From Spartobacteria bacterium (lineage in GTDB: Bacteria; Verrucomicrobiota; Verrucomicrobiia; Chthoniobacterales; UBA10450): 64,000 bases of DNA. Every line of letters begins with the position of its first letter. The first letter of the stretch is position 1. Below, in pieces: positions 16,835-27,350 of the stretch. The notes beneath the pieces are model-generated. The model was not told the origin of the DNA. It did not search any database and saw only the letters and a program-made list of their open reading frames with translations. Where the stretch lies: NCBI GenBank assembly GCA_003169975.1, contig PNAA01000041.1, forward strand, positions 62,657 through 126,656, in the 5' to 3' direction. Position numbers and translations under genes: made by a program.

Positions 16835-17043
16835 GTCTGCGAAAAGTAGTGCAGCGTTAGAGAGTTGAAAAGCTAAAGCATGGAGAACTTCGGCACTCAG
16901 GCGGCAACTATTTTCCTTTTAAAGCAATCGGGCTCCGATACGCTCTGCTTCAAGAGTTCCCTATGGCCAACGAGAGAACATTATCAGGGCTGGAGGTGGC
17001 GAAAGCGCCTCGCTCATCTCCCACTCGAATTTCGTTGCCCTTC

Positions 17044-19417
17044 ATGCTTAGGATCAAAAGCAGAGTGGTGATTCTTGGGCTCTTATTCTTCGCCCTGACT
17101 CGCGTGGCTTTCGCGCAAACGATCTGGAACACTCAATCCGGTGACTGGTTCCAGACGGCCAACTGGTCCGACGGCGTCCCAGACTCGGCGACCGATACGC
17201 AAGTTAACAATGGCGGAACGCCTCAGGTCGCAGCCGCCGGGGCTAGCACAAACAACCTTTACCTGGGATTCGACGCCGGCGACTCTGGAAACCTGCTCGT
17301 TTCCGGGTCAGGTACTCTCCAAGCCGCCAACCTGCTGGCGGTCGGTTATACCGGGACGGGCACGATGACGGCAATCAACGGCGCGACTGTTTCCGACCTC
17401 GACGGGGGCGTCGGTGGCGTGCCGGAAAGTAACGGCACGGTCTTGATCGACGGTGTCGGCTCGACCTGGACGAACAGCGTCAGCCTCGGGGTTGGTGGAT
17501 TTGGTAACGGAACATTGACGATCTCGAATGGTGGCACGGTCATCAGTGGCATGAGTTCGATTGCTGGCAACATTCCAATCTTCGGAGGAGGCAGCGGGAG
17601 TGTGACCGTGGATGGCTCAGACGACTTTGGACAGCAGCCAAAGGCTCGGAGTCGATGGCGGCTCCCTGACCGTGCAAAATGGCGGAGCCGTGGTGAGCGA
17701 GAGCGCGTATGTGAACGGCGTCGCAGTATTGGACGGCCCGGGTTCGACCTGGACCACCGGGCAGACCTTCGTTGCTTCGAGCGACTACGGGAATCTGACA
17801 ATTCGGAACGGAGCCCTGCTCTCGAGTAACGGCCTCGCCGCGATCGGAGATACCGCCCGATCCTCTGGCTTTGTCGCGGTCGACGGTGCGGGCTCCAAAT
17901 GGGATAACGACTTCGACCAGGTCCAGCTTTATGTCGGATTTGGCTTTCCCGGCACGCTCAGCATCACCGGTGGCGGCGTCGTTTCCACCTTTGGCGCCGG
18001 AGTTGGCGTCGGGGGGGCCGGGCGGTGAACTGGTCGTCGATGGAGCCGGCTCAGCGTTCAATGTCCGCACCAACCTTTATGTCGGTGGAGCCGACTACGG
18101 CTCCGGACCGGTCGCGGGCGGGGTCGGCCTGATCCAGATCAGCAACGACGGCGCCTTAAGTAGCGCTGCGACAACAATCTTCGGGCAAGGGACGATCGTG
18201 GACGACGGCAGCCTAACGAGTGAAGGAGTGACGATCGCGCCAGGAGGATTGCTCAAAGGCAATGGTGTCCTCTCGGGAGACGTCACGAACGCGGGGGAGG
18301 TCGAGGCTGGTGATTCGATCGGCTTACTCCTGCTCGAAGGCGATTACACCCAAGCCTCCACCCGCACATTGACCGTGGAGGTCGACGGCCCTGGCTCCGG
18401 CGATCAGGGGCATTTGAGCGTTACCGGCGGCGCCACCCTCGATGGAACCTTGGAAGTTCGCTTCGGCAACAGTTTTCTTCCCCTCCAGGGTCAGGTCTTC
18501 GACCTTCTCGATGTCTCAGGTGCCGTGACCGGCTCTTTCCCGCAGATCACTTTTCCCGATCTCCGCTCCGGTTTCCAGTTCAGCGCCGGATTTGAGAACG
18601 GCGTCTACCAGATCATGGCCCTAAGCGACGGCGCGCCCGCCGCCGGTTTCCTCAATATTTCCACTCGCGCGCAGGTCGGTCCCGGCGAGGACGCGCTCAT
18701 CGCAGGCTTTATCATCATGGGCACGGTGGCGAAGAAAGTGATCATCCGCGGGCTCGGCCCTTCCCTGACGGTGAACGGCATCCCGTTGCCCGGGAGCCTC
18801 GACGATCCCACCCTCGAACTGCGCGACGGCGCTGGCGACCTGATTTCCGCCAATGACAACTGGATGGACAGCCCGCAGCGGCAGGAGATTATCGACAGCA
18901 CCATCGCGCCGACCGACGACCGCGAGGCGGCGATCGTGGCCACGCTCGCGCCCGGCAACTACACCGCGATCCTGACCGGCGTCGGGAATGGCACCGGCAT
19001 TGGCGTGGTCGAAGCTTATGATCTCGGCCCGGACGTCACCGTGAATCTCGCCAACATCTCGACGCGCGGGATTGTTGGCACGGGCGGTGATGTGATGATT
19101 GGGGGATTTATTTTGGACGACCAAAACGCGATCGTCCTGCTGCGCGCGCTCGGTCCGTCGTTGACGCAAGCGGGTATCAGCAACGCGCTGGCCGATCCGA
19201 CTCTGGAGCTGCACAACGGCAACGGCGATGTGATCGCGTTCAACAATGACTGGCAGGAAACCGACGAGGCAATCATCCGAAATACGGGGATACGCCGACT
19301 TACAGCCAGGAATCGGCGATCCTTGCAACGCTCGGGCCCGGTCAGTTCACCGCGATCGTGCGTGGCCAAGATGAAAGCACCGGCATAGGCTTGCTCGAAG
19401 TTTACAACCTGCATTAA
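17044..19417 (+). pseudogene. Large secreted autotransporter-like/beta-helix protein with three frameshifts
   Basis: ATG 17044 (or 16963) begins a signal peptide (VVILGLLFFALTRVAFAQ), then passenger-type beta-helix repeats built on phrases such as GNLLVSGSGTLQAANLLAVG and GNGTLTISNGGTV. Near 17612-17630 the repeats move to a second frame (RLGVDGGSLTVQNGG); at the G7 run 18011-18017 to a third (GGELVVDGAGSAFNV); at the G4 run 19286-19289 to a fourth (TYSQESAILATLGPGQFTAIV), ending at 19417 in LLEVYNLH. The C-terminus has two copies of a roughly 120-residue module (LNISTRAQVG... IIRGLGPSL; ANISTRGIVG... LLRALGPSL) that I know from Verrucomicrobia secreted proteins. Two of three breaks are in G runs, so slippage or sequencing error must be considered. 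Confidence 0.75.
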
Positions 19418-19577: not shown

Positions 19578-20147
19578 ATGGAAGGACAAGATAACGAAAT
19601 GACACACGGGCAGGAGAACGGCGCGATCGACGAAAGCGGCAATGTCGATCGCATCCGCCACATTCTTTTCGGCTCGCAAATGCGCGATTACGACGGCCGA
19701 TTTCAGAAGCTCGAGGAACGTCTGACGCGCGAAGCGGAGGAGTTGCGCGGCGACTTGCAACGCCAACTCCAGGCGCTCGAGGCCTTCATGAAAGGTGAGG
19801 TGGAATCGATGACCAACCGCGTCAAGACCGAGCAGTCGGAACGTGGGCAGGCCTTCGAGCGCCTCGCGCGTGAGATGGCTGAAACGGCGCGCGGTCTGGA
19901 GTTGAAAATCGGCAATCTCGATAGCCAGGCCGCCAGGGATATTCGCGAGTTGCGCGAGCAGTTGCTCGAGCAATCGAAAGCGCTGAGCGCGGATTTGAAG
20001 GCGAAGCACGATCATTTGAAGGGGCAGCTCGATCACGAAGCAGGCCAGATCCGCGACGCCATGACCGGCCGCGAAGCGCTGGCCGAGATGCTGACCGAGG
20101 TCGCGCTCCGTCTGAAAAAAGAATTCCGCGTTCCAGGCACATCATAG
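19578..20147 (+). CDS. Coiled-coil protein, first gene of the five-gene GTPase operon
   Basis: 189 aa, soluble, no signal peptide or membrane segment. After an acidic N-terminus, the conserved-looking DRIRHILFGSQMRDYDGRF (about residues 24-42) leads into an almost continuous coiled coil (KLEERLTREAEELRGDLQ to about residue 170). It starts at ATG 19578 with a good purine-rich ribosome site (CAGGAG) upstream, and ends 3 bp before the next gene. I recall similar 'ILFGSQMRDYD' coiled-coil genes beside OmpA-type and GTPase genes in other phyla, but no function. It is probably a scaffold or adaptor linking the membrane protein to the GTPase; this is inference from position. Confidence 0.8.
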   Translation: MEGQDNEMTHGQENGAIDESGNVDRIRHILFGSQMRDYDGRFQKLEERLTREAEELRGDLQRQLQALEAFMKGEVESMTNRVKTEQSERGQAFERLAREMAETARGLELKIGNLDSQAARDIRELREQLLEQSKALSADLKAKHDHLKGQLDHEAGQIRDAMTGREALAEMLTEVALRLKKEFRVPGTS

Positions 20148-20150
20148 GAA

Positions 20151-22265
20151 ATGCACCCACGGATGCGTAGCGCGCAGCCGCGAAAGCCGGTGGATGACCT
20201 GGCTGAGCTGCGCCGGCTGATCAACCAGCCGGAGCGGGATAAGCTGCGCGACCTGCGCGATCGGCTCGATGACAAAGAGCAGCGTGCTCACGAGGTCGCG
20301 GCCATCCTGCCGGAAGCCGTCACCCTGAGCGGCGATCGCAGCGAAGAGCTGACGCGTGCCCTGCGGCCCGCGGTTGAGGGCTCGGTCCGCGAGTCGATCG
20401 AGAAGCGCCCCGAGGTTTTTATTGATGCGCTTCATCCGATCATCGGCTCGGTCGTTAGGCGATCGATCGCGGAAAGCCTGCGCACGCTCCTCCAATCGCT
20501 CAACCAATCACTCGAACAAAGCTTTTCCTGGCAGGGATTGAAGTGGCGCTTTGAGGCCTTGCGCACCGGCCGGAGTTTCGCGGAAGTCGTCATGCTGCGC
20601 AGCCTCGTTTATCGGGTGGAACAGATTTTTCTTATTCATCGCGAGACGAGCCTCTCGCTCCTGCACCTGAGCGCTGATCCGGCCGCCGCGCAGGACTCCG
20701 ACATGGTCGCGGGCATGTTGAGCGCGATCCAGGATTTCTCGCGCGACTCGTTCAAGACGGGGAAGGACGAGGCGTTGGAGGAGTTTCGCATCGGTGAGTT
20801 GCAGGTTTGGATTGCTCCGGGGACACACGCTTATCTCGCCGCCGCGATCCGCGGCAATCCGCCGCGCGAACTGCGGGCCGCTCTCGAGGATGCGATCGAG
20901 CGGGTGCATGTCTTGCGCGGTTCGGCATTGGCGAAGTTTAATGGCGATGCGGCGCAGTTCGAATCGCTCCGGCCGGAGCTGGAGCCGTGTCTGCGCGGGC
21001 AGTATCAGGCGAAGAAAACCTCCGCCGGCACGAACCGCGCTTGGCTTGCCCTCGCGCTCGGCGCGGGCCTGGTCGTGGCGGCCCTGATCGTCGGAATCCA
21101 AAGCGAAATGCGCTGGCAGGATTTCGTTAGGCAATTGAACGCTGCGCCGGGGATCGCGGTGACACAGGCGGAAAAAGGTTGGATCTCAAAATCGCGCGTC
21201 GCATTTCTGCGCGATCCCGAGGTGGCCGACCCGGCCGCGCTGGCGCGGGCCGCCGGGATCAATCCCAGCCGCATCCGCTTTGAGTGGAAGGATTATCTGG
21301 CGCTCGATGATGCGAGCGTCTTGCGGCGTTTCGAAAAACGGTTCGGAAAACCGGCCGGCACAAAACTTGACCTAACGAATGGCGCACTGGAGATCCGCGG
21401 AGCCGTGCCCTACGAATGGCTGGCGCGCGTGCAGCAGGACGGTATCCAATCGCCCGGCATCACCTCCATCACAGACAAGGATGTGAAAGTGACCTACGAT
21501 CCGGATTTGGCACTCGGGAGATTTCGGCGCGCGTTTTCGCCCCCGGCGGGTGTGATCGCGAAGATGGAGAACGGGACGCTTCTGGTGGCCGGCACGGCTC
21601 CGTATGAATGGCTCGCGCCGGTGCGCGAGAACGCGGCGAAACTGCCCGGGATTAGCCGGATCTCCGAAGAACATTTGCAGGTCGCTTACGACCCCAAACT
21701 CGTGCTCCAGCGTTTTAGCGATCGCTTTAGCCTGCCGGACACGGTCAACGCCACGATGAAGGACGGCATCCTCGTCCTTTCCGGCGAAGCTGCGCATGCC
21801 TGGTTGATGCGAGTGCGACCAGGTGCGCCGACGGTCCCGGGCATCAAGACGATCGACGAACGCAACTTGACCGATCTCGACCTGCGTGCGTTCCAGCAAT
21901 CGAAGTCGGTCATCGAGAGCGCGTTTGTTTATTTTCTCGTGAACAAAGATAACTTCGCCACGGAAGGATTTGCCGCGCTCTCGCGTTTGCCGGATGAAAT
22001 CCGCCGCTGCCTCACGGCGGCGACCCGCCTCGGCCTGGAGATTCAAATCGAGGTGCGCGGTTCCGCGGATGCCGTCGGCAGCGGGAAGAGGAATGCCGAA
22101 CTGAGCCAGCGTCGGGCGGAAGCGGTACGCGATTTTCTGGTCAACTGCGGTTTCGAGCCGTCCCTCTTCAAGACGATGGGCTTGGGCGCGCCTCCCGCAG
22201 CGGACCAACCAGCGCCGGAGCAAGCGGATCGCCGCACGGCGTTCAAAGTCGTCCCGAAGTCATGA
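20151..22265 (+). CDS. Membrane protein with cytoplasmic helical region, three periplasmic repeats and OmpA-like domain, 704 aa
   Basis: Residues 1-290 are soluble and helical, with repeated ILPEAV / ALRPAVEGSVRESI amphipathic elements and GLKWRFEALRTGRSFAEVVM. One membrane helix (AWLALALGAGLVVAALIVGI, about 296-316) follows. Beyond it are three repeats of about 64 residues beginning near 390, 453 and 518 (LRRFEKRFGKPAG, LGRFRRAFSPPAG, LQRFSDRFSLPDT, each with an x-YEWL- or AHAWL core), BON-like in layout. An OmpA/MotB-type domain ends the protein (IEVRGSADAVGS, NAELSQRRAEAVRDFL). A likely topology is cytoplasmic N-terminus with periplasmic peptidoglycan-binding C-terminus. Its stop overlaps the GTPase start (ATGA). 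Confidence 0.85.
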   Translation: MHPRMRSAQPRKPVDDLAELRRLINQPERDKLRDLRDRLDDKEQRAHEVAAILPEAVTLSGDRSEELTRALRPAVEGSVRESIEKRPEVFIDALHPIIGSVVRRSIAESLRTLLQSLNQSLEQSFSWQGLKWRFEALRTGRSFAEVVMLRSLVYRVEQIFLIHRETSLSLLHLSADPAAAQDSDMVAGMLSAIQDFSRDSFKTGKDEALEEFRIGELQVWIAPGTHAYLAAAIRGNPPRELRAALEDAIERVHVLRGSALAKFNGDAAQFESLRPELEPCLRGQYQAKKTSAGTNRAWLALALGAGLVVAALIVGIQSEMRWQDFVRQLNAAPGIAVTQAEKGWISKSRVAFLRDPEVADPAALARAAGINPSRIRFEWKDYLALDDASVLRRFEKRFGKPAGTKLDLTNGALEIRGAVPYEWLARVQQDGIQSPGITSITDKDVKVTYDPDLALGRFRRAFSPPAGVIAKMENGTLLVAGTAPYEWLAPVRENAAKLPGISRISEEHLQVAYDPKLVLQRFSDRFSLPDTVNATMKDGILVLSGEAAHAWLMRVRPGAPTVPGIKTIDERNLTDLDLRAFQQSKSVIESAFVYFLVNKDNFATEGFAALSRLPDEIRRCLTAATRLGLEIQIEVRGSADAVGSGKRNAELSQRRAEAVRDFLVNCGFEPSLFKTMGLGAPPAADQPAPEQADRRTAFKVVPKS

Positions 22266-22762
22266 TTCAGAATAAAGTCTGCCTGCTGGGGACTTCCGGG
22301 GTCGGCAAGACGAGCCTCGTGGCACAGTTCGTCCACAGCATGTTTTCGGATAAATACCTCACCACCGTGGGTGTGAAGATCGACAAGAAAATCGTGCAGG
22401 TGGACGGCACCGAGGTCATGTTCGTGATCTGGGACCTGGCGGGCGACGACGATTTCCAGCGGCTGCAAACCTCGTATCTGCGCGGCACGAGCGGCTACCT
22501 GCTGGTGGCGGACGGGACGCGACGGGTCACGCTCGATCAGGCGCTCGAATTGCAGAAGCGAGTGGCCGAGACCCTCGGTGCGACGCCTTTCGTGCTCGCG
22601 CTGAACAAGGCGGATCTGGCTCCGCAATGGGAAGTGGATGAGGCGCAGATCAGCGCGCTCGCCGCGCAGGATTTCACGGTCATCAAAACGAGCGCGAAGG
22701 AAGGCGCCGGCGTGGAGGAAGCCTTCGCGCACCTCGCCCGCCGGATGACGGCGTCCGCCTAA
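22262..22762 (+). CDS. Ras/Rab-like small GTPase, 166 aa
   Basis: A complete small GTPase domain: G1 GTSGVGKT (residues 10-17), switch I Thr in LTTVG (34-36), G3 WDLAGDDD (57-64), G4 NKAD (115-118) and G5 TSAK (143-146). The glutamine that follows DxAG in Ras (Gln61) is Asp62 here, so intrinsic hydrolysis may be slow or use another residue, as in the prokaryotic MglA/Rup groups. There is no C-terminal cysteine for lipidation. The ATG overlaps the upstream stop (ATGA), and the stop TAA at 22760 is part of a GCCTAACGA motif. Position between a membrane protein and kinase-like and receiver proteins suggests a molecular switch. Confidence 0.93.
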   Translation: MIQNKVCLLGTSGVGKTSLVAQFVHSMFSDKYLTTVGVKIDKKIVQVDGTEVMFVIWDLAGDDDFQRLQTSYLRGTSGYLLVADGTRRVTLDQALELQKRVAETLGATPFVLALNKADLAPQWEVDEAQISALAAQDFTVIKTSAKEGAGVEEAFAHLARRMTASA

Positions 22763-22767
22763 CGATC

Positions 22768-23883
22768 ATGCCCGACACCGCATCGCCCGCTCAATCTGTC
22801 CTCGAAGCGCTCGGCTTCGTGCTTTTCGCGCGCGAGAGCCCGGGCACTCTGCGTTTGTTAGGCAAAGCGCCCGCCTGGCTCGGCGCTCTCTGGCCCTCGC
22901 TCCGGGAAAGCGGCGGGACTCTGCCGCTCGCGGACGCCTCGCCCTTCCTGGAAAATTTCCTGGTCGACGCCGAGGAATGCTGGAGCAAAGGTGGCGGCGA
23001 GCGAGCGAAGTCGGGACCGTGGATTGAAAACGGGAGCGGCGCGGAGGTCGAGCTGGAGGCGACCGCGCTGGCCGCGAACGGCCAATCGCTCCTTCTCCTC
23101 GAACGGCTCGGCGAAGCGTTTGCGGCGAAAAAATCGGTCCTGCAACTGGCACGCGAAACGGTCATCGCGCACCAGCGATTAAATTCCGAGATTCAGAAAA
23201 AGGAAATCCTGCTGCACTGCGTGGCGGACGAGATGAGCGCCGCACTGGCCAACGCGATCACTTCGCTACGGCTGATCGAGCTGGAGGACAACGGGCCGCG
23301 CACGAAGTCGCTTCTCGGTCTCGCCACCCGCGCGACGCAGGAACAGCAAACATTGATCCACCGAATTCTCGGCGTGTTCGAGGAAGAATTGCGTGGCGTT
23401 CAGGGCCGCCCTGACCCAACGAGCGCGGGCGCGGATTGGAACACGGTCTTGCAGCGCGCGCTGGACTCGGCGCAGCCGCTCTTTGCCGAGAAAGACGTCC
23501 GTCTCGATGTCTCGGAAGCGGGGGCCGGCGCGGCGCAAATTCCGGCCGATGCCGCTCAGCTCGAGCGAGTCGTCGCAAATCTTCTCGAGAACGCGCTCGA
23601 ACGCACTCCGGCCGGCGGCACGATCGCCGTGCGGACGGAAGACGAGCCGGAGGCGCTGGTCCTGGGTGTGGAGGACAAGGGAGCCGCTATCGCACCCGAG
23701 ATTTGCGAAAATTTGTTCGTCAAATGGGATCCGTCGAAGGTCACCTCACCGGCGTCCGCGCTACGCCTGCATTTTTGCCGCATCGTGGTGGAGAACTGCG
23801 ACGGCGAAATCGGCTGCACTCCCCTCCCCGGAGGCGGCCAGCGCTTCTGGATTCGCCTCACGAAAAACCGCGCCGCCGCATGA
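22768..23883 (+). CDS. Histidine-kinase-like protein with degenerate H-box and G2 box, 371 aa
   Basis: The N-terminal 130 residues form a PAS-like sensor region without membrane segments. A dimerisation helix follows (KKEILLHCVADEMSAALANA, about residues 143-162). At the place where kinases have His-Asp/Glu it reads Ala-Asp, though a His lies three residues earlier. The HATPase_c domain has an N-box (ANLLENALERTP) and a G1 box (VEDKGAAI), but the glycine-rich G2 box is replaced by SPASALRLHFC. It may therefore bind ATP yet not phosphorylate conventionally, or use the shifted His. It ends overlapping the receiver-MBL gene (ATGA), the classical arrangement for a kinase and its cognate response regulator. 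Confidence 0.8.
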   Translation: MPDTASPAQSVLEALGFVLFARESPGTLRLLGKAPAWLGALWPSLRESGGTLPLADASPFLENFLVDAEECWSKGGGERAKSGPWIENGSGAEVELEATALAANGQSLLLLERLGEAFAAKKSVLQLARETVIAHQRLNSEIQKKEILLHCVADEMSAALANAITSLRLIELEDNGPRTKSLLGLATRATQEQQTLIHRILGVFEEELRGVQGRPDPTSAGADWNTVLQRALDSAQPLFAEKDVRLDVSEAGAGAAQIPADAAQLERVVANLLENALERTPAGGTIAVRTEDEPEALVLGVEDKGAAIAPEICENLFVKWDPSKVTSPASALRLHFCRIVVENCDGEIGCTPLPGGGQRFWIRLTKNRAAA

Positions 23884-25202
23884 AGACGCTGGTCCTGATC
23901 GACAACGACGCCCTCTCCCGCGCCTTGCTCTCCCAATGCCTCGCTGGCCAGGGTTGGAAAGTGCTCGAGGCGGAGAATGGCGCGGCCGGGCTGGACCTCG
24001 TCGTGAAGCATCAACCCACCGCGGTGGTCTGCGACCTGCGGACGCCGAAAGGCAACGGCTTCAAGATCTGCCGGCTGATTCGAGAAGATGCGCAGTTGAA
24101 CTCGACGCGCGTCGTTCTGATGGGTGTCAGCCGTTTCGCGAACGACCGCGACACGGCGTTTGCCACCGGGGCGGACGGTTATCTGGTGAAACCCATCGCC
24201 CCTGGAGAACTGCTGGCATCGCTCGAACAATGCCGGGATGACGTGCGCTCGGCGGAGAACTCAAAAACGGCTTTTGCCGGGCCGACGCGGGTGCGCTTCT
24301 GGGGCGTCCGCGGCTCGATTCCGACTCCCGGACTCCAAACCGCGCAGTTCGGCGGCAACACTTCGTGCATCGAAGTGCGGGTCGGCGATCAAGTCATCGT
24401 GCTCGATGCCGGCTCCGGCATCCGCGCACTCGGCCAGGAGCTGATGCGAGAATTCCACAACAAGCCGCTCGATATCACGATGCTGGTCACGCACACGCAC
24501 TGGGACCACATCCAGGGATTTCCGTTTTTCATTCCGGCCTACAATCCGAAAGTCAATGTCCGCATTGTAGGCTACGAAGGCGCGGTGCACGGATTGCGCG
24601 GCGCGCTTTTCGAGCAAATGCAGAGCGCGTTTTTTCCCGTCGGGCTCAATCAAATGGCGAGCCACGTCACCTTTGAAGAACTGAGCGAGATGGAGTTCGA
24701 GCTCGACGCGGTGAAAGTGCGCGCAATCTTCGCCAACCATCCTGGCATCTGCCTCGGCTACCGGCTGAGCACGCCAAGCGGCGACATCGTTTACATGCCC
24801 GACCACGAGGCCTACGAACGGCACGAAATCGAGCGGCAAAAAATCGCCGGCGAAACCTCGCCAGCGAGCCTCGATTACGCGCGCGCGCAGGATGAAAAGG
24901 TGATCGAATTCATCCGCGCGGCCGACGTCGTGATCGGCGATACGCAATACGACACGACCGAATATCCGAGCCGCCTCGGCTGGGGTCACACTTGTGCCGA
25001 TGATGCCGTCGATCTCGCCATGCGCGCTGGGGTGAAACACTTATTTTTGTTCCATCACGATCCCGATCATCACGATGACAAAATGACCGCGATGATCGCG
25101 CGCGCGGAAGAGAAGGTCGCGGCGGCGGGTTCACCGATGATGGTCAGCGCGGCGCGCGAAGGCGCGGAGTTCGTCCTCGAATGGGCGCTGCCTCGGGCCT
25201 AA
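23880..25202 (+). CDS. Receiver domain fused to a metallo-beta-lactamase-fold enzyme, 440 aa
   Basis: Residues 1-120 are a receiver domain with acidic pocket LIDND, phospho-acceptor Asp52 (VVCDLRTP) and the conserved Lys in YLVKPI. After a short linker comes an MBL domain of the RNase Z/phosphodiesterase-like group: VRFWGVRGSIPTPG, GGNTSC, DAGSGIRALG, the metal motif HTHWDH (about 204-209), a MPDHE Asp/His motif, GDTQY and HTCADDAV near the C-terminus. All metal ligands appear present. Phosphorylation would thus gate an enzyme rather than a DNA-binding output; cyclic nucleotides or RNA are candidate substrates (inference). Its stop TAA is part of GCCTAACGA at 25197. Last gene of the operon. 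Confidence 0.9.
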   Translation: MKTLVLIDNDALSRALLSQCLAGQGWKVLEAENGAAGLDLVVKHQPTAVVCDLRTPKGNGFKICRLIREDAQLNSTRVVLMGVSRFANDRDTAFATGADGYLVKPIAPGELLASLEQCRDDVRSAENSKTAFAGPTRVRFWGVRGSIPTPGLQTAQFGGNTSCIEVRVGDQVIVLDAGSGIRALGQELMREFHNKPLDITMLVTHTHWDHIQGFPFFIPAYNPKVNVRIVGYEGAVHGLRGALFEQMQSAFFPVGLNQMASHVTFEELSEMEFELDAVKVRAIFANHPGICLGYRLSTPSGDIVYMPDHEAYERHEIERQKIAGETSPASLDYARAQDEKVIEFIRAADVVIGDTQYDTTEYPSRLGWGHTCADDAVDLAMRAGVKHLFLFHHDPDHHDDKMTAMIARAEEKVAAAGSPMMVSAAREGAEFVLEWALPRA

Positions 25203-25485: not shown

Positions 25486-26091
25486 CTACAGTCTCGTCCG
25501 GCCCGCGAGCGCGCGGGAAAGCGTGAGCTCATCGGCCGATTCCAACCCGCCACCGGCGGGCAAGCCATGCGCGATACGCGTCAGGGTGACGGGATATTTC
25601 TTCAAGAGCGCGACGAGGTAGTTCGTCGTCGCTTCCCCTTCCACGTCGGCCGCGAGCGCGAAAATGATCTCGCTCGGTGCTTCCTTTTCCACCCGCTCGA
25701 CCAACGAGGCGATGCGCAGGTCTTCCGGCGCAACCCGATCGAGCGGCGAAATGCGCCCGCCTAATGAGTGGTAGCGGCCGCGAAAGGCGCTCGTCTTTTC
25801 CAGCGGCAGGATGTCGGTCGGCTGCTCCACCACGCAGAGCAACTCCCGCGCACGCGAATCATCGGCGCAAATTTCGCAGAGGTCGGCGGTCGCGAAGAAG
25901 CCACACTGGAGACAGGGCCGAATGGTATCGCGCGTGCTCGCGATCGCGCGCGCGATTCCGGCGGGCTGCTCATTCCGCGCCTGCACGATCCAGAGGGCGA
26001 TGCGCTCGGCGGAGCGCGGACCGACTCCGGGCATCTGGCGCAATTGGGCAATCAACTCGCGGATTGCGACGGGATATTCGGTGCGTTTCAA
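25486..26091 (-). CDS. recR: Recombination protein RecR
   Basis: 201 aa, the normal RecR length. It has the N-terminal helix-hairpin-helix (LRQMPGVGPRSAERIAL), a four-cysteine zinc finger (CLQCGFFATADLCEIC), and a Toprim domain (LLCVVEQPTD, YHSLGGRISPL) ending in the Walker-like region LARIAHGLPAGG. With RecO it loads RecA at gaps bound by SSB; RecF is also encoded here (60621). The start is a TTG at 26091, chosen because it overlaps the upstream stop as TTGA and precedes KRTEYPVAIREL; no ATG in frame fits. It is the last gene of a three-gene overlapping minus-strand operon. Confidence 0.94.
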   Translation of the reverse strand: MKRTEYPVAIRELIAQLRQMPGVGPRSAERIALWIVQARNEQPAGIARAIASTRDTIRPCLQCGFFATADLCEICADDSRARELLCVVEQPTDILPLEKTSAFRGRYHSLGGRISPLDRVAPEDLRIASLVERVEKEAPSEIIFALAADVEGEATTNYLVALLKKYPVTLTRIAHGLPAGGGLESADELTLSRALAGRTRL

Positions 26092-27350
26092 AACGGCGCG
26101 AGCGATTCGGAGCCTGGCGCGGGTTCGGTCGCCATCTGCAGGCAAAGCGGCTCGAGGCGGCGGAGGTACCACTGGAGGGGCCGGTCCAGCTCGCCGTCTT
26201 CGCCCCGCGCCCGGGTAAATTCCGCGAAGGCTTCGTTCCAGCGGCGCTCACGAAAATAAACGATCGCGGTCCAGAAACGATCCCGGCGCGCGATTTCTTC
26301 CGGGGTCGCCTGCTCCGCGAGCGAGAGCAGTTCGTAGACTTCGAGCCGCTCGTGCGACTCGGAGCTGCGCAAAAAATCAATCGGTCGCGCGACGATTTCC
26401 TTGCCAGCCGCGCTGTAGGTCTTGGGTCCAAGCAATATTTGAGAGCCGTAAATCTGGTTCGCGCGCGCCAGCCGGCGAGCGACCTCGAGGGGTTCGCCGG
26501 AAACGACGATCTCACTGCGCGGTGAATCGTCCCGTCTCGTGGCCACGATGACACCGGAGCTGAGGCCGATGCGGAGATCGATCTTGCCTAACGAATCCGG
26601 CCTTGCGGCCGCAGCCGCGCGGAAGCTATCCCGGAAGGCGAGCGCGGCGCGGGCCGCATCGCGCGCATGCTGCTCGCTCGCGTTGGGAAAGCCAAAAAGG
26701 ACGCGTACGCCTTCACCGTCCGCGGCGTGCAGATAACCTCCATCCCGCAGGAAGCGCTCGTTCGCGCAGGCGTTGAAGTCGCGGGTCAACTGCGCGCAGA
26801 CCGCAGCCGGGAGCTCGTCGATCAGCTCGCCTTCATTGGCGATCTCGCAAAAGACAAGGCTCGCTTCGCGCGCCAACGCCTCGCCCAATTCCAGCGCCCC
26901 GTTTTCCGTCAGGCGATCAAGGTTCGCCTGGTGGAGGCGTCCCTCGAAGAGGCGCGTGGTCGCGCTGCGCCGGCGACCGGCATCCGTCGCAGTGAAGCCG
27001 CAGGCGAACGCCGTGGCGAAGCCGGCTGCGAGGATGGCGGGTAGCGGCGGCAAAGAACTTCCCGCGGCTTGCCAAACCCAGGCTGCGACAATCAATTCCA
27101 AGAAAAGCACGGCCAGGAGACCGACGCGACGCCACGTCTGGGTCACCTCCAGCATGGTCCACGCGACGGCGAAGCTGAGCGTGATGACGAAAAGAAAACT
27201 TCCAAAACTGACGGCCTCGTTAGGCGAGAGACCGATGGCTTTGCCAAAAAACGCCGCGGGACGCGCGAGGAGCCCGGTCGTCTGCAGGACGATGGCAACG
27301 GCGGCGGCGGCCGCGCCAATCCACAGTGTGGCGAGGAGCGCGCGCTTCAT
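26088..27350 (-). CDS. Membrane protein with class III nucleotide cyclase homology domain (probably degenerate), 420 aa
   Basis: Four hydrophobic segments within residues 1-125 precede a domain with the layout of class III adenylate/guanylate cyclases: LVFCEIANEGELID, then HAADGEGVRVLFGFP, ARDAARAALAF, LRIGLSSGVIV and a YGSQILLGPKTY ending. In active cyclases the two metal-binding Asp lie in F-x-D-I and G-D-x-V-x-x-x-F-G; here both positions appear to be Glu (CEI and GEG). It may be inactive or regulatory. It overlaps the ClpX-like gene upstream (ATGA) and recR downstream (TTGA). A short helical, TPR-like tail follows the cyclase domain. Confidence 0.75.
   Translation of the reverse strand: MKRALLATLWIGAAAAAVAIVLQTTGLLARPAAFFGKAIGLSPNEAVSFGSFLFVITLSFAVAWTMLEVTQTWRRVGLLAVLFLELIVAAWVWQAAGSSLPPLPAILAAGFATAFACGFTATDAGRRRSATTRLFEGRLHQANLDRLTENGALELGEALAREASLVFCEIANEGELIDELPAAVCAQLTRDFNACANERFLRDGGYLHAADGEGVRVLFGFPNASEQHARDAARAALAFRDSFRAAAAARPDSLGKIDLRIGLSSGVIVATRRDDSPRSEIVVSGEPLEVARRLARANQIYGSQILLGPKTYSAAGKEIVARPIDFLRSSESHERLEVYELLSLAEQATPEEIARRDRFWTAIVYFRERRWNEAFAEFTRARGEDGELDRPLQWYLRRLEPLCLQMATEPAPGSESLAPF

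Follow-up and report, generated by a model that had tools for sequence, protein, structure and literature searches.

We analysed a 64,000-nucleotide stretch of a Spartobacteria genome (the window; part of contig C49 of a 4.5 Mb draft genome), focusing on a five-gene operon at positions 19578-25202 of the plus strand whose genes we call A to E. Genes A to D very probably constitute a Group 1 Rup system, a predicted bacterial signalling system built around a Ras-like GTPase, and gene E adds an enzyme in which a receiver is fused to a metallo-β-lactamase (MBL) domain. Because the kinase-like product of D and the receiver of E have both lost residues that pass phosphate, the operon probably signals through the GTPase and protein contacts rather than through phosphate. 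Our preferred reading, to which we assign a probability of about 0.5, is that a receptor and the GTPase govern a pseudokinase/pseudo-receiver pair that gates an enzyme resembling class II phosphodiesterases. Measured against the main text in which Group 1 Rup was predicted (Wuichet and Sogaard-Andersen 2014, PMC4316618), the receiver-MBL fifth gene and the loss of phosphate-transfer residues are new; the system itself is not.

A Group 1 Rup operon with a fifth gene

The operon consists of five complete open reading frames (ORFs), intact and spaced exactly as a sequence-only reading of the window had described them. They form one tightly packed unit, also as proposed there, with gaps of 3 bp between A and B and 5 bp between C and D, and 4 bp ATGA overlaps at B/C and D/E. 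The expectation that this neighbourhood would be conserved outside the genome was borne out: the order A-B-C-D-E is kept in the independent genomes G022, G003, G001, G534, G533 and G438, and G496 has B-C-D-E on a contig that begins inside B. The arrangement is therefore not a product of chance.

Gene C (22262-22762, +) encodes a small GTPase of 166 residues. It has a Ras fold (Pfam Ras, 4.6e-35) and is homologous to Rup members of Mesorhizobium, Nostoc and Hahella; the GTPase switch postulated earlier is supported. The G3 motif, WDLAGDD (22430-22450, +), is without the catalytic Gln, and in all 55 aligned GTPases the residue following the G3 Gly is E, D, R or S, never Gln. The main text of PMC4316618 describes Group 1 Rup GTPases as missing the G3 Gln and as very closely related to the Rab/Ras/Rho group of eukaryotes. 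They adjoin three conserved genes, for a coiled-coil protein, a protein with an unknown domain, a transmembrane (TM) segment and an OmpA domain, and an output protein of GGDEF/EAL type or a histidine kinase, with an invariant Gln in its N-terminal region. In the window, the coiled-coil gene A and the domain-TM-OmpA gene B adjoin the GTPase gene, and the output protein D carries Gln126 (23143-23145, +), which we assume to be the Gln of the published sequence logo. This column is Gln in 52/52 alignable output proteins, and most other columns are poorly conserved.

Since A-B-C-D fits the published neighbourhood, the G3 Gln is missing in 55/55 GTPases and the output Gln is present in 52/52 proteins, the assignment to Group 1 Rup by architecture and defining residues appears close to certain. 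It follows that the operon, previously thought to match no named or characterised system, does have a name for its first four genes, though no characterised member: according to the 2014 main text none had been characterised by then, and a search of the open-access literature brought up no Rup GTPase characterised since. That text also names Verrucomicrobia once, for MglA, and makes no mention of a metallo-type enzyme. The shared features are thus the coiled coil, the domain-TM-OmpA protein, the Ras-like GTPase and the Gln-bearing output; the systems described there have no fifth gene, whereas in the window a degenerate kinase is followed by a receiver-MBL enzyme.

Gene A (19578-20147, +) encodes a cytoplasmic coiled-coil protein of 189 residues that has no Pfam match above curated cut-off. 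Its LFGxQxRDY signature is common to Rup-linked coiled coils of other phyla, and its Nostoc and Rhizobium homologues occupy the same place in their loci. Gene B (20151-22265, +) encodes a receptor-like protein of 704 residues comprising a ~295-residue cytoplasmic domain, one TM helix (residues 298-316, WLALALGAGLVVAALIVGI; 21042-21098, +), periplasmic repeats of ~60 residues (about residues 355-575; 21213-21875, +) and a C-terminal OmpA peptidoglycan-binding domain (residues 631-693; 22041-22229, +). The helix is the hydropathy maximum and the single strong segment, and the OmpA domain is supported by Pfam (9e-11) and by OmpA-like domains in the PDB. The repeats, seen as shifted self-similar high-scoring segment pairs against loci L013, L015 and L018, vary in number among relatives; no repeat was seen at the DNA level. 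Judged from the OmpA domain, the ~295 residues would be cytoplasmic and the repeat/OmpA part periplasmic, in keeping with the wall-facing receptor that had been proposed.

Loss of phosphotransfer residues in D and E

Pfam, alignment, an AlphaFold2 (AF2) model and a fold search together describe the product of gene D (22768-23883, +) as a degenerate histidine kinase with a PAS-like N-terminal domain, a Q-helix linker, and DHp- and CA-like domains. Pfam matches HATPase_c (3e-15) but not HisKA, whereas the intact D of locus L054 has a HisKA match. The N-terminus, where Pfam finds no PAS domain, appears PAS-like in its predicted topology and in full-length matches to LOV kinases; the VIA-align alignment of D covered mainly residues 120-369. 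In the AF2 model a PAS-like domain is followed by a long helix, DHp and CA, and the fold neighbours include DivL and WalK among many kinases. Caulobacter DivL, in which Tyr replaces the phosphoacceptor His, shares the histidine-kinase fold with D but has no GTPase or MBL partner in its operon.

Alignments covering 12 D proteins and 16 E proteins show which residues were lost. In place of the phosphoacceptor His of D the window has Asp154 (23227-23229, +) and seven relatives have Glu, giving a clade of eight members without the His. The surrounding DHp stretch aligns without gaps and reads LLHCVVHDM in L025 and L057, LLHCIIHDM in L027 and L054, and LLHCVADEM in the window. The G2/ATP-lid motif is also degenerate, SPASALRLHFCR (23746-23781, +) as against GxxGLGLFFCR in active-type relatives, and the GLGL of the active-type sisters is gone from all eight clade loci. 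The sister loci L025 and L027 keep the His, the GLGL and the acidic pair of the receiver. The earlier label 'kinase-like' thus holds for the fold of D, with its DHp and CA domains, but not for its catalytic residues.

Gene E (23880-25202, +) encodes 440 residues, with a receiver (Pfam Response_reg, 8e-19) fused to an MBL domain (Lactamase_B_2, 5e-15), both of which are present in the AF2 model. The metal-binding acidic pair of the receiver is ED in L025 and L027, ED or DD in six orphan receiver-MBL proteins, and DN, DS, ES or EN in the eight clade loci, so that the second acidic residue has been lost in exactly those loci whose D has lost the His. The window pair is D8/N9, with Asn9 (23904-23906, +) at the second position. 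Gly82 (24123-24125, +) occupies the conserved Thr/Ser position, a substitution found only in the window among Rup-linked E proteins (all nine relatives have Thr or Ser); the orphan L096 has Ala. Asp52 (24033-24035, +), the phosphoacceptor-type residue, and Lys104 complete the canonical set of five. A receiver fold missing any of these five is defined as a pseudo-receiver in PMC12632262, which reports a non-acidic residue at the second acidic position in ~80% of such domains. By that definition the receiver of E, as judged from the alignment, is a pseudo-receiver. Its earlier description as phosphorylatable is now doubtful: Asp52 and Lys104 are kept, but Asn9, Gly82 and the Asp154 of neighbouring D speak against it.

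In contrast to these losses, the metal site of the MBL domain is complete. H205, H207, D209, H210, H287, D308, H392 and H393 are invariant in the 16 E proteins, the first four lying in the HTHWDH motif (residues 205-210; 24492-24509, +). E therefore has the MBL fold, the HxHxDH motif and the further ligands that mark class II phosphodiesterases, and an enzymatic output, as foreseen from the sequence, is supported. Fold neighbours of the E model are YhfI, 1zkp, RNase Z, PhnP and Apyc1, plus an arylsulfatase. YhfI is a class II phosphodiesterase that prefers cAMP/cGMP (PMC9117128), and in mycobacteria a relative with an MBL domain reduces cAMP (PMC9293780). The class II and atypical class II enzymes YhfI, Rv1339 and Apyc1 share the MBL fold and HxHxDH metal site with E; unlike E they have no receiver domain, and identity in the fold alignment is about 17%. 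These predicted structural resemblances support phosphodiesterase chemistry for E and no particular substrate. With the NCBIfam cyclic nucleotide phosphodiesterase model E scores 40 bits, far below the cut-off of 400.

The genes are not decaying. In within-genus pairs (L013, L018, L050), the ratio of nonsynonymous to synonymous substitution rates (dN/dS) is 0.07-0.08 for C, 0.11-0.14 for D and 0.06-0.07 for E, and D shows 100% identity across its Q-helix linker. Given these low ratios, C, D and E are under purifying selection, as had been argued from the intactness of the operon. Within D, the CA domain has a higher dN than the DHp domain in seven clade pairs (ratios about 1.35 to 6.2), but relaxed constraint specific to CA in the clade is not decisively indicated, because active-type pairs show a CA excess as well (about 1.1 to 2.0).

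The eight loss loci form one clade in both the D tree (support 100/99) and the E tree (100/100). A split form occurs in a genus with active-type kinase and receiver, where the genes are divided between two loci, A-B-C and C-D-E, and each locus carries a GTPase copy of its own. C-D-E and A-B-C lie on contigs C26 and C61, respectively, in G039 (L016, L017) and on C79 and C47 in G497 (L055, L056); G498 (L057, L058) has C-D, E on a separate contig, and A-B-C. The flanks fetched around the split C-D-E loci contained no A or B gene. Phosphotransfer residues are thus lost where receptor and output lie in one operon and kept where they are apart, although this is a single contrast that could have arisen by chance.

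A proposed contact-based mechanism and its alternatives

In the mechanism we favour, B, anchored to peptidoglycan, would sense the state of the envelope and, with A, set the nucleotide state or position of C. GTP-bound C would dock on the PAS-like/Q-helix module of D, where Gln126 may complete the GTPase site of C in trans. The changed D dimer would then act on the receiver of E by direct contact, without phosphate, and the receiver would raise or lower the activity of the MBL phosphodiesterase, whose substrate is most likely a cyclic nucleotide or similar phosphodiester. A more ambitious evolutionary version is that a Ras-like GTPase took over a two-component pair, keeping the folds and their mutual contact while the phosphate chemistry was lost, so that GTP replaced phosphate in gating a phosphodiesterase from a wall-anchored receptor; we hold this more tentatively, at somewhat less than even odds. 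The closest working analogy is the MglA-SgmX-FrzS pathway of Myxococcus (PMC12632262), in which MglA-GTP acts on SgmX, which binds the FrzS pseudo-receiver. There too a GTP-bound small GTPase governs a pseudo-receiver by contact, but the GTPase is of the MglA family, SgmX is not a kinase and the output is type IV pili. The actinobacterial conservon (CvnA-D) also combines a kinase and a small GTPase in one operon with no conventional DNA-binding regulator; it differs in its MglA-family GTPase with a Roadblock partner and in having neither an OmpA receptor nor an MBL enzyme.

Several results weigh against the contact-based mechanism. None of the 16 E proteins departs from Asp52 or Lys104, a constancy that would be surprising at a completely unused site. 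Some D proteins without the His retain the Asn of the N-box and the Asp of G1 and may therefore still bind ATP. The losses amount to one event per tree rather than repeated events. A PDB sequence search with the MBL domain gave weak matches to solved phosphodiesterases (best E 0.004), and the AF2 models were built on 11 and 16 sequences (predicted local distance difference test scores 77 and 80).

The conservation of Asp52 and Lys104 would be accounted for by a conventional two-component system tuned by the GTPase, in which D autophosphorylates on another residue or at a non-canonical site and phosphorylates Asp52 to switch the MBL domain on. The ancestral form probably worked in this way, because the sister loci L025 and L027 retain the necessary residues. 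For the present operon we regard such a relay as improbable: the His position is Asp or Glu in 8/8 clade members, the G2 glycines are lost, the second acidic residue is Asn or Ser in the same eight, and D has no HisKA match. Moreover, the His is missing in only 0.9% of HisKA domains (PMC12632262). It is somewhat easier, though still unlikely, that another kinase or a small phosphodonor phosphorylates E and that D, under the control of the GTPase, serves only as a brake of allosteric or phosphatase-like kind. Asp52 is available for this, and no kinase gene adjoins those orphan receiver-MBL genes that were inspected, so that the phosphate of their products, if any, must come from elsewhere; loss of the second acidic residue, however, should weaken metal-dependent phosphorylation by any donor, and window E is also without the Thr/Ser.

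A further alternative concerns only the substrate and fits any switch. The MBL domain could be a nuclease of RNase Z type or another hydrolase instead of a cyclic-nucleotide phosphodiesterase, and we take this to be a serious possibility that falls short of the favoured one. Its best partial NCBIfam match is RNase Z (1.4e-18, 67 bits, below the cut-off of 293), and RNase Z and an arylsulfatase are among the fold neighbours. On the other hand, YhfI-type proteins outrank RNase Z in the fold search, and Rup outputs elsewhere synthesise or degrade nucleotide messengers (class III cyclase, GGDEF/EAL, HD domain). A role in anti-phage defence or another conflict would suit the patchy distribution and shifting chromosomal location of the operon but is highly improbable, since outputs elsewhere are ordinary signalling domains. 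As a known defence system the operon was rejected, no PADLOC model matching any of the five proteins.

As a complete unit of five genes whose read-out is probably enzymatic, the operon makes the role of bacterial Rab-like GTPases testable in vitro. The active-type kinase and receiver of L025 and L027 and the dead-looking pair of the window clade also provide a natural before/after comparison for signalling by pseudokinases and pseudo-receivers; the activation mechanisms of pseudo-receivers have been called a mystery (PMC12632262).

Distribution, recruitment and neighbouring genes

Group 1 Rup is rare in the phylum: 11 of the 213 genomes from the order have it, as do 5 of 388 genomes spread across the phylum. 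It occurs more often (48/398 sampled genomes) in the phylum to which the Hahella metagenome-assembled genome (MAG) belongs. The nearest Rup-bearing relatives of the window genome are Verrucomicrobial MAGs. Across loci the Rup output module is joined to a class III cyclase, an HD domain (HD-GYP type), GGDEF/EAL, a sigma-54 activator, a HisKA_3 kinase or a hybrid kinase, and because so many different domains are attached it can be viewed, from these architectures, as a plug-in. Class III cyclase, HD-only and sigma-54 outputs are absent from the description in the 2014 main text (PMC4316618). Fusions to HD, class III cyclase and sigma-54 activator domains were seen in L107, L108, L109-L129 and L047-L049.

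The E profile is matched in 117 of 213 genomes of the order, in some by the MBL part only, and the window genome has a second receiver-MBL copy (G000:C40:118054-119307). The six orphans inspected (L095-L100) stand alone, and by eye three of them lie just downstream of a probable membrane pyrophosphatase gene. In the E tree the ten Rup-linked proteins group together to the exclusion of the orphans (support 100/100), and recruitment therefore probably happened once. The fifth gene is an addition made in a clade of one Verrucomicrobial order and drawn from this common orphan family.

The sequence-only reading overstated the case in calling all surrounding accessory genes decayed. The genes directly downstream of the operon (recR, one resembling a cyclase gene and one for a ClpX-like ATPase) are all open and intact. 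The minus-strand gene at 26088-27350, two genes from E, encodes a membrane protein with a weak, sub-threshold Guanylate_cyc match and does not adjoin the operon in the relatives fetched. Since none of these recR, cyclase-like and ClpX-like neighbours lies beside the operon in the 16 relative loci fetched, flanking synteny was dropped as a clue to function. A sigma-70 scan found no promoter, a result that carries little information. Between 19578 and 28933 none of the genes examined encodes a Roadblock (MglB) protein. Only the gene to the left of the operon (16963-19388), whose repeat-rich product would be secreted or lie at the surface, appears frameshifted; its ORFs, 16963-17829 and 17871-19388, sit in different frames, and a relative of the latter was found upstream of the operon in L019/L015.

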